Source: Terriglobales bacterium
GTDB taxonomy: Bacteria > Acidobacteriota > Terriglobia > Terriglobales > Acidobacteriaceae
Direction: 5' to 3'
Length of the DNA stretch: 36,874 bases
Assembly: GCA_025934025.1 (NCBI GenBank)
Contig: JAICYU010000010.1
Location: 1 to 36,874, forward strand
Shown here: piece by piece, positions 9,103-11,599 of the stretch
Position numbering within the stretch: the first letter of the stretch is position 1
Layout of the letters: each line of letters starts with the position of its first letter
The notes under the pieces: generated by a model
Told to the model about the DNA's origin: nothing
Database searches by the model: none
Seen by the model: the letters and a program-made list of their open reading frames with translations, nothing else
Translations under genes and position numbers: made by a program

Positions 9103-10017
9103 TCACATTGAACCGCCAGCCTTGTCGGCCTGACCTTTCAGGGTTGAAATCAGATCGGCGACAGCCTTGGCCTCGCGTCCGGGATTCTGTTCAATCGCTT
9201 GCACAATCGCGCTTCCCACAACAGCAGCATCGGCAAAGCCGCCCACCTGCAGGAACTGCTCCCGGTTTGAAATCCCGAAGCCCACCCCGACAGGCAGTTT
9301 GGTGAACTTCCGGATTCGTTTGACCAGCGCAGCAGCATCTGCCGCGATCTCCTGTCGGGCTCCGGTCACTCCCGTGCGCGAAACCGCATACACAAATCCC
9401 TGGCAGGCTTGAGCGATTCGCTTCAGGCGCTGGTCCGAGCTGGTGGGCGCCGCCAGAAAGATCGTGCTGAGCTCGTGAGCAGCCATGCGCGCTCGGTATT
9501 CGTCCGCTTCTTCGATCGTGAGGTCGGTGATCAGCGCGCCATCCACTCCGGCCCGTGCGGCCGCCACGCAGAACCGCTCCAGACCGAACCGCAGAACGGG
9601 ATTCATATAAGAAAAGATGATCAGCCCGGCATCAGTTTGATTGCGCACATCGGCTGCGAGCGCGAGTACGTCTTGAAGCGAAGTGCCCTTCTTTAAAGCC
9701 CGCTCGCTGGCGCGCTGGATCACCGGGCCATCAGCCACTGGATCGCTGAAAGGCACGCCCAACTCGATTACGTCAGCTCCGGCGCGAACGGCAGAAAGAA
9801 TGATTTCGCGGCTGGCGGCGATGCTCGGATCGCCGCACGTCAGGTAAGCAACGAGACCGGGCTGGTGGCGGAAGCGCAGACGTGAATCGCCTTTCAATCG
9901 GGTGATCGGATGAGAATCGCCGTGATCGCGCGCCATCGCCGTCTGTGATCCGGTGATCGGGTGATCGGGTGATCGGGTGATCGGCGAGGCCAGACTGATC
10001 CTCTTTTCTTTACTCAT
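9103..10017 (-). CDS. trpA: Tryptophan synthase alpha chain with repeat-derived N-terminal extension
   Basis: The alpha chain cleaves indole-3-glycerol phosphate to indole for the beta chain. The barrel is intact: catalytic Glu85 and Asp96 in ADVIELGVPFSDPVADGP, then FSYMNPVL, YAVSRTGVTGAR and the GFGIS phosphate loop. The protein (304 aa) carries about 36 residues more than Salmonella TrpA at its N terminus. Part of that extension ([13 protein letters not shown], residues 12-24, and HPITR, 36-40) is a translation of an 8-bp tandem repeat. ATG 10017 overlaps the stop of the S23-family gene (ATGAGTAA), so translation may be coupled; an internal ATG at 9936 is the alternative start and would avoid most of the repeat. 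Neither has a good ribosome site. Confidence 0.93.
   Translation of the reverse strand: MSKEKRISLASPITRSPDHPITGSQTAMARDHGDSHPITRLKGDSRLRFRHQPGLVAYLTCGDPSIAASREIILSAVRAGADVIELGVPFSDPVADGPVIQRASERALKKGTSLQDVLALAADVRNQTDAGLIIFSYMNPVLRFGLERFCVAAARAGVDGALITDLTIEEADEYRARMAAHELSTIFLAAPTSSDQRLKRIAQACQGFVYAVSRTGVTGARQEIAADAAALVKRIRKFTKLPVGVGFGISNREQFLQVGGFADAAVVGSAIVQAIEQNPGREAKAVADLISTLKGQADKAGGSM
9946..9984. repeat. Downstream 8-bp tandem array (TGATCGGG units)
   Basis: Five head-to-tail units: TGATCCGG at 9946-9953, TGATCGGG at 9954-9961, 9962-9969 and 9970-9977, and a partial unit at 9978-9984. Degenerate units continue outside it (TGATCGGA at 9903-9910, TGATCGCG at 9923-9930). On the trp coding strand it reads as CGATCACC units and lies inside the 5' end of trpA. 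It is the inverted partner of the array at 10373-10408. Confidence 0.95.
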
Positions 10018-10366
10018 GTTGTGCCGTCTTTCGAGAGGCCGAGATCATCACAAGCTGATTCGCCTCATCCAGCAGCTCGCTCAATTTAGTTCTTTGGACA
10101 ATCCCGCTATCGCCGAGCATCTCCAACCAAAAGACGGTCTCATCAGCCTCTTCCACCACAATTCCCAGCTTCGCGACGAATTCTGCCCTAGAGCGCGCCC
10201 TCCCAACAGCCCTATAGTTCGCTGCCACTGAAGTTGCCGAACGGAGTATTTGATTTGTGATCACGTTTGCAGCGCGCGTTTTCGGTAAGGCGTCGGACAT
10301 TTTAATTACCCTCAGGGCAAATGCTTTGGTCCGATCTTTTAATTCGACATGCTTGTCTATACTCAT
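10010..10366 (-). CDS. Four-helix-bundle protein of the S23/IVP family inside the trp operon
   Basis: The 118-residue protein is a full-length member of the family named for ORFs in 23S rRNA intervening sequences (related to the Avd accessory protein of diversity-generating retroelements). The family core is clear: FALRVIKMSDALPKTRAANV, then ITNQILRSATSVAANYRAVG, then RSRAEFVAKLGIVVEEADE, then WLEMLGDSG and LLDEANQLVMI. It should form a basic four-helix bundle, probably oligomeric and able to bind nucleic acid. It lies between trpB and trpA and shares ATGAGTAA with trpA. It has no ordinary ribosome site, but the repeat array just upstream supplies GGTGATC seven bases before the ATG. Its role in tryptophan synthesis, if any, is unknown. 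Confidence 0.92.
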   Translation of the reverse strand: MSIDKHVELKDRTKAFALRVIKMSDALPKTRAANVITNQILRSATSVAANYRAVGRARSRAEFVAKLGIVVEEADETVFWLEMLGDSGIVQRTKLSELLDEANQLVMISASRKTAQHE

Positions 10367-10372
10367 GCTTTT

Positions 10373-10408
10373 CGATCACCCGATCACCCGGTCACCAGAT
10401 CACCCGAT
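10373..10408. repeat. Upstream 8-bp tandem array (CGATCACC units)
   Basis: Units: CGATCACC at 10373-10380 and 10381-10388, CGGTCACC at 10389-10396, AGATCACC at 10397-10404, and CGAT at 10405-10408. On the trp coding strand this reads GGTGATCG and is the reverse of the array at 9946-9984. The TGA stop of trpB (10400-10402) is part of a unit. Confidence 0.95.
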
Positions 10409-11599
10409 GTGGAGGCTTTCTCTTAATATCCCCACATCTTTGTCGCCTCGCCCGGAGATATTGACGATAACTACATCCGACTTCTTCATCCTCGGCGCGC
10501 GCTTGATGCACTCCGCCACAGCATGAGAGGATTCGAGCGCGGGGATGATTCCTTCGATGCGGGCCAGTGTGACACAAGCCTCGAGAGCTTCCTCATCTGA
10601 AGCCGCTACGTACTCTGCCCGGCCGGAGTCCGCGAGGGCTGCATGTTCCGGGCCGATCGAAGGATAATCAAGCCCCGCAGAAATGGAATGAGTAGTTGCG
10701 ATCTGGCCGGCGCTGTCTTGCAGTACGTAAGAGAACGTGCCCTGGAGCACTCCCGGAGAGCCGCCGCGAAAACGGGCAGCATGGTCGCCCAGTTTCTCGC
10801 TGCGCCCTCCGGCCTCCACGCCGATCAGCTTGACCCGCCGGTCGTTGATGAACTGATGAAAAATACCGATGGCATTGGAGCCGCCTCCTACGCAGGCGAT
10901 GATCGCGGTGGGCAACTTGTCTTCAGCGTTCAGGATCTGAGCACGCGCTTCGCGGCCAATCACAGAATGGAAATCGCGTACCATGGTTGGATAAGGATGA
11001 GCGCCCAGCACACTGCCGAGAAGATAATGCGTGGTGCGGACATTGGTGACCCAGTCGCGCATCGCCTCGTTGATGGCATCCTTGAGCGTCTTTGATCCAG
11101 AGTCCACGCCGCGAACTTCAGCGCCCAGCAGCCGCATGCGGAAGACGTTCAATTCCTGGCGCCGCATGTCTTCGGCTCCCATATAAACCACACAGTCGAA
11201 TCCGAAGAGAGCGCAGACCGTAGCCGTCGCAACACCATGCTGCCCGGCGCCGGTTTCGGCGATGATGCGCTGCTTGCCCATGCGCCGCGCCAGCAGCGCC
11301 TGCCCGATACAATTGTTGATTTTGTGAGCTCCGGTGTGCAGCAGGTCCTCGCGCTTCAAGTAGATCCTTGCTCCGCCCAGCTTTTCTGTAAGCCGGCGCG
11401 CAAAGAACAAGGGCGTAGGCCGGCCGGCATACTCCTTCAACAACCGCTCGAACTCCGCGCGAAACCTCTTGTCTCTGCGGGCCTTTCCATACTGGCGCTC
11501 CAGTTCTTCGAGCGCCGCCATCAGCGTTTCCGGAACATAGCGCCCACCATAGGCGCCGAAACGTCCTGCTGCCGGTTTCAGCTTTGCCGTGCTTCCCAT
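10400..11599 (-). CDS. trpB: Tryptophan synthase beta chain
   Basis: The beta chain joins indole to serine using pyridoxal phosphate. The 399-residue protein is complete: [17 protein letters not shown] at the start, the cofactor lysine in HTGAHKINN (Lys93), AETGAGQHG, the phosphate-binding [10 protein letters not shown] and the C-terminal [12 protein letters not shown]. The start has GAGG four bases before the ATG, and overlaps the end of trpF by 22 bases. The final residues (LHIG) and the stop codon are encoded by the first bases of the repeat array at 10373-10408, so the junction with the inserted element falls exactly at the end of the gene. The catalytic part is not affected. Confidence 0.97.

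Follow-up and report, generated by a model that had tools for sequence, protein, structure and literature searches.

An S23 cassette with inverted octamer arms at the trpB-trpA junction, probably the source of the TrpA start codon and of a disordered leader

In Coxiella burnetii, the intervening sequence (IVS) of the 23S rRNA gene is a 428-nt element that encodes S23, has complementary ends and is excised by RNase III. Heptameric direct repeats lie directly before the S23 start, and the protein is considered not to be produced (PMC4990558, the portion available here). Abundant intergenic heptamers have been reported in other bacteria: TAACTGA in Beggiatoaceae, which gives stops in all frames of one orientation (PMC4679880), and GGGAATC in Xanthomonas, with many inverted pairs (PMC4692102), both according to the available portions. 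The term S23 has zero occurrences in the main texts of these two papers, and their available portions contain neither an S23 cassette nor an N-terminal extension of a core enzyme. Within our partial coverage of the literature on S23, repeats and TrpA, S23 and inverted short-repeat arrays were found unlinked, and the link may be known elsewhere. In E. coli, translation of trpA is coupled to that of trpB, and ribosomes can reinitiate after termination at ATGA/TGATG overlaps (PMC6728339, in the part seen).

We analyzed a window of 36,874 nt (the whole stretch of DNA under study), which is contig C45 of the 3.66-Mb genome (G000) of a Terriglobales soil bacterium. Its minus strand carries trpC (IGPS), trpF (PRAI), trpB, S23 and trpA in this order, with a DAHP synthase gene further on. 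A sequence-only reading of this DNA had pointed to a repeat array at the trpA start. The array is real, but that reading overlooked its inverted partner, the cassette formed with S23 and the overlap of ATG and stop, and it left S23 unlinked to the start codon. The features of the junction are as follows.

10400..11599, minus strand: trpB; its stop TGA (10402-10400) lies within the 5' repeat array, and the TrpB C-terminus reads ...HIG-stop.
10373..10408, minus strand: 5' arm of the cassette, an GGGTGATC-type octamer array (TRF; inverted-arm alignment of 36 nt, score 57).
10010..10366, minus strand: S23 gene, encoding a four-helix-bundle protein (23S_rRNA_IVP) of 118 aa (PF05635, 1e-15; TIGR02436, 5.2e-22; PDB 2rld).
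10010..10017, minus strand: overlap of trpA start and S23 stop (ATG 10017-10015, TAA 10012-10010, ATGAGTAA); an overlap is also found in G002, G004, G006 and G015.
9948..9983, minus strand: 3' arm of the cassette, an CCGATCAC octamer array, inverse of the 5' arm; trpA reads it as PITRSPDH, with zero stops in any frame.
9886..9944, minus strand: second, degenerate repeat stretch (GGCGATGGCGCGCGATCACGGCGAT..CCGATCACCCGAT), TrpA residues about 25-44.
9886..10017, minus strand: TrpA N-terminal extension, residues 1-44, almost certainly cassette-encoded and predicted to be disordered.
9934..9936 (ATG, residue 28) and 9897-9895 (TTG, residue 41), minus strand: alternative in-frame starts.
9106..9885, minus strand: conserved TrpA barrel (TIGR00262, PF00290).
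10017..9103, minus strand: trpA ORF, 304 aa, ATG start.

S23 passes the profile cut-offs (58.3 bits vs 33.8 for PF05635; 78.1 vs 24 for TIGR02436) and is the only gene of the cassette; a profile search of the cassette found no transposase or recombinase of its own, as a transposon or insertion sequence would carry. The complementary ends around S23 that characterize an IVS are present: the 36-nt arms form an 18-bp stem enclosing S23 in the predicted fold of the cassette RNA (-195 kcal/mol, z -3.6). The second IVS characteristic, location in a 23S rRNA gene, is absent, as the cassette lies between trpB and trpA. Two other readings were rejected. For a known structured RNA, a search of 9850-10450 against Rfam gave nothing at E <= 0.5, and for a phage origin, similar DNA was absent from 50,697 phage records and S23 had no PHROGs family.

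As far as the available portion on Coxiella goes, the trp cassette resembles that IVS in being an insert of about 430 nt with an S23 ORF and complementary ends, predicted here to form a stem. Unlike it, the cassette stands between protein-coding genes and its arms are short tandem arrays. Its S23 looks translated and coupled to trpA, whereas that of Coxiella is considered not to be produced. The S23 arms share with the TAACTGA and GGGAATC repeats, as partly seen in those papers, tandem units of 7-8 bp, dispersed occurrence and a position near gene ends.

The repeats are highly enriched in the window. We found five tandem copies of GTGATCGG at 9945-9984, and the 15-mer GATCACCCGATCACC, with at most 2 mismatches, occurs 7 times against 0.08 expected (0/100 shuffles reached 7). 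Since 8 and 3 share no factor, the octamer gives stops in every frame one way and none the other: any frame yields the same eight-residue cycle, the stop-free PITRSPDH in the CCGATCAC direction and VIG-stop-SGDR, with one stop, in reverse. In the trpB direction, the GGGTGATC-type 5' arm has a stop codon in all three frames. An essential gene can tolerate the arrays because, in the orientation found, the upstream array ends trpB and the downstream array is an open, frame-neutral linker.

TrpA scores 277.5 bits against a cut-off of 102.35 (TIGR00262/PF00290), and its catalytic acids, E85 and D96, do not vary in alignment A1. Domain homology begins near residue 46, the counterpart of residue 10 in the Salmonella and E. 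coli chains, in agreement with the 36-residue offset to Salmonella TrpA given by the sequence-only reading. Compared with empty-site relatives (MSRIYFQHTPGLVVY), whose start Met aligns with D44, the extension measures 43 residues. Residues 12-24 and 37-40 (PITR) are translated CCGATCAC units, so the earlier attribution of the extra residues to repeat translation is borne out; it overlooked a second, degenerate unit (GGCGATNNCGCGCGAT type), from which residues 28-44 largely come. This degenerate unit type, seen at 9886..9944, recurs in the S23 arms of three other loci (L077, L078, L136). It is nearly certain that the TrpA extension derived from the cassette.

We examined the predicted structure of TrpA. 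AlphaFold2, run with a four-sequence alignment, gave a confident barrel, and the Foldseek matches of the model were tryptophan synthase alpha chains. Residues 1-44 had a pLDDT of about 32 and are predicted to be disordered, as had been supposed. The extension runs into strand 1 (residues 54-60 of the predicted structure). In the TIM barrel of TrpA, the C-terminal face bears the catalytic residues and the contacts to TrpB, and the chain enters strand 1 from the N-terminal face. By this topology the extension should leave on the N-terminal face, opposite the active site and the TrpB contact, which argues against its earlier placement at the alpha/beta interface side. P. furiosus and other short TrpA chains (1geq, 1wdw) have few residues before strand 1, like the family's empty-site TrpA and unlike the window TrpA with its extension.

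To compare this junction with its relatives, we read 30 trpA loci (L011-L040). S23 lies between trpB and trpA in 5/30, namely in G000, G002, G004 and G006 of one genus and in G015 of another. In all five, inverted arrays surround S23, trpB stops within the 5' array or at it, and the trpA ATG overlaps the S23 stop (ATGAGTAA, ATGA or TGATG); from this ATG the frame stays open across the 3' array and on to the barrel. The arms are more decayed in G015 (score 31) and G006 (15, under the score limit) than in the other three. With the source genome in 362 contigs and short repeats hard to assemble, an assembly or annotation artefact might be suspected, but the identical junction architecture in four other genomes from two genera makes it scarcely credible.

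The ends of the cassette are themselves repeats. In G005 and G008 the site is empty: the trpB stop overlaps the trpA ATG as ATGA, and TrpA starts MSRIxF. Many of the 30 loci can start 9-10 residues before the conserved [GA]LV (e.g. MPLTFSARPALVAY), which indicates that TrpA of the GTDB family is naturally short. The sequence-only reading had held that the same extension in relatives without any array would speak against a repeat origin; in these relatives the extension is absent.

That reading also offered ATG 9936 as an alternative start. If TrpA of the window starts there (residue 28) or at TTG 9897 (residue 41), the CCGATCAC array is untranslated and 4-17 extension residues remain. Both codons are in frame, ATG 9936 would outlast cleavage of the hairpin, and homology to the domain is not seen before about residue 46. 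However, G002, G004, G006 and G015 have no other in-frame ATG, GTG or TTG ahead of the conserved domain and must use the S23-overlapping ATG, so that, barring non-standard initiation, the array must be translated there. A later start would also turn the overlap with the S23 stop into a coincidence, and neither codon has a visible Shine-Dalgarno sequence (none is clear before ATG 10017 either). ATG 9936 has no equivalent in the other four cassette genomes, and we consider a later start in the window unlikely. We rate translation of the extension as likely in the window and as very likely in the four genomes G002, G004, G006 and G015. Most likely, TrpA now starts inside the cassette, and its first 44 residues are mostly repeat-encoded.

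The number of residues before the conserved [GAS]LV is 53, 29, 29, 43 and 20 in G000, G002, G004, G006 and G015, respectively, and the frame is kept in 5/5. Such conservation could mean that the tail serves TrpA or tryptophan synthase, in stability, complex formation or regulation, and a comparison of G002 with G004 fits this: their shared PITGSPDHRITRS codons (13 codons) carry two differences, both synonymous, and zero replacements. But the frame is kept because TrpA must be made at all, which counts against an adaptive tail. Its sequence and length vary freely, it is predicted to be disordered, and relatives without it are common; we judge such a benefit improbable. The five 8-bp units within the coding sequence, with copy numbers varying between species, could instead form a phase-variation switch, in which one octamer more or less (8 = 2 modulo 3) would throw trpA out of frame, so that some cells of the population stop making tryptophan. 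The finding that all five alleles are in frame, together with units that are few, imperfect and of several mixed kinds, makes this switch highly improbable.

A TrpB C-terminus of KIG-stop or HIG-stop, from ATCGGGTGA-like sequence, occurs in 7/9 genomes of the genus and in G015. Among these array-like ends, the KIG-stop of G001 (L016), G003 (L012) and G007 (L013) is found at trp loci with no S23, and these ends are likely scars of a lost cassette. Such scars would imply that the cassette is not permanent and that trpA can obtain another start after capture. Decayed octamers persist at trp in G003 and G007, and the trpA starts of all three genomes would be new.

We found a further S23 cassette between trpB and trpA in G061 (L085, G061:C104), with CATTGAAT-type arms and the trpB stop in a repeat. 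Here trpA kept its own ATG and has no extension, so start capture is not a necessary outcome of insertion. A single arrival at trp was rejected because the S23 tree separates the five trp copies by 2 or more label changes on starred branches, in a tree of few columns with 33/69 inner branches open and the bootstrap not settled. This split is compatible with two separate arrivals as well as with a single old one from which copies later left. A clearer second arrival is the cassette of G061, whose repeats differ. Most likely, the trpB-trpA junction was entered more than once, N-terminal capture being one outcome.

Taken together, it is very probable that an S23 cassette inserted at the trpB-trpA junction and took over the trpA start, its 3' arm becoming a disordered leader. 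The cassette (5' inverted array, S23, 3' inverted array) would have entered the junction of formerly ATGA-overlapping genes; in the present sequence, trpB terminates in the 5' array and nothing is left of the ancestral trpA start. Ribosomes finishing S23 would reinitiate at the overlapping trpA ATG, S23 would replace trpB as the coupling partner, and the 3' arm would be translated as the disordered leader of TrpA. Judged from the overlap, translational coupling of trpA to S23 is likely. Set against the part of the E. coli trpB-trpA account seen here, the cassette loci have a like ATGA/TGATG overlap before trpA, but the upstream partner is S23, not trpB.

In the mRNA, the arms would pair around S23 like the ends of 23S rRNA intervening sequences, and RNase III may cut them. 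A cut inside the arms would strip the coupled ATG from the trpA message, so that cutting and coupling conflict. Given this conflict, either cutting would be inefficient here or ATG 9936 of the window would serve the cut message. The cassette could be viewed as an element that uses host transcripts for its expression; its RNA processing and its mobility are put forward as hypotheses.

To see whether arms are general, S23 loci were collected with tblastn, and the 200 nt before each S23 gene were compared with 215 nt around and after it (score limit 30). In the GTDB family, 57/72 distinct S23 genes reached 30 or more (swapped pairs, 67/856) and 40/72 reached 40 or more (27/856). For S23 genes from across the phylum and another in-genus S23 subfamily, a set with one near-duplicate pair (L176, L178), the figure at 30 was 34/40 (swapped pairs, 12/459), and for 12 plasmids of Cyanobacteria, Chloroflexota, Bacteroidota and Spirochaetota it was 10/12 (7/132). 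The controls gave 0/26 for trpA flanks and 0/40 for window ORFs (0/66 together). Pooled over the 124 genes (72 + 40 + 12), 101 scored at least 30; those below numbered 15/72, 6/40 and 2/12. On these 124 genes, S23 genes generally carry matched inverted arms of 7-8-base units.

The arms are arrays of 7-8-bp units that differ by locus (ATCGGGTG, CATTGAAT, AACTGTG, AATTTGT, AGCACTC, GAAGTCG and others). The closer the S23 proteins, the more alike are their arms (Mantel r 0.45, 0/2000 permutations). After dropping pairs with a common flanking gene, r was 0.38 (0/2000 permutations), indicating that the correlation stems partly from shared insertions.

In 42/51 cases the upstream gene stops within the 5' arm or no more than 15 nt ahead of it. 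With the longest open frame taken as the neighbor, same-strand neighbors in the family set are more frequent upstream (63/69) than downstream (47/69; p 0.0012), and the phylum set shows no such excess (34/39 vs 32/39, p 0.75). Stop codons are richer in the 5' than in the 3' arms at 30 family loci against 9 (8 ties; p 0.001, kinship ignored); the surplus is weak in the phylum set (15 vs 7, 8 ties, p 0.13) and amounts to 5 vs 0 with 3 ties on plasmids.

S23 cassettes were also seen at nuo junctions (nuoD/nuoE, nuoE/nuoF, nuoF/nuoG) in several genera (L158, L069, L142, L143, L149, L166, L167). The nuo cassette of the window genome (L158, G000:C59:22565-22900) has a flanking gene in common with L142, whose upstream gene is nuoD. 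On plasmids, S23 cassettes stand amid defence genes (L203-L206, L210, L214: drmD/mmeI, DUF1156/Swt1-HEPN, helicase/methylase) and beside cas1 or between cas2 and cas1. Inverted GATCACCC array pairs only about 40-150 bp apart (G008:C9:50201-50281, G008:C114:406-482, G182:C282:1417-1655) are too close for a full S23 gene and resemble small non-autonomous versions. Elsewhere in the window genome, a long ORF of L001 (G000:C41) has LPNYQITQLP stretches, which are TAATTGGG-type octamers in a coding-length frame. The predicted N-terminus of a glycosyltransferase (L010:1114-2217, G000:C221) is MTLPITRSLDHPITG, octamer-encoded and with no S23 seen adjacent; it is possibly a second repeat-encoded leader.

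We read S23 cassettes as probable messenger-operon relatives of the intervening sequences of 23S rRNA. A wider proposal, which we hold tentatively and at somewhat less than even chances, is that S23 with its inverted 7-8-bp arrays forms a bacteria-wide selfish class that sits behind operon stop codons and lives on host transcripts, with arms cognate to their own S23. At trp, such an element would have captured an essential start, so that TrpA production would hinge on translation of S23 and the protein would carry an added repeat-encoded leader.

To our knowledge, S23 intervening sequences have no known function, and we know of no agreed explanation for the short 7-8-base repeats that are common in bacteria. 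The finding of S23 genes between mirrored short-repeat arrays, often behind the stops of core genes, unites these two puzzles. The repeat type tracks the type of S23, and this leads to a testable idea of what S23 binds and why the repeats exist. It is also a warning for annotation, as an unusual N-terminus of the PITRSPDH kind can be genuine. The trp case illustrates one cost or accommodation, in which the start codon of an essential enzyme apparently lies inside the cassette.
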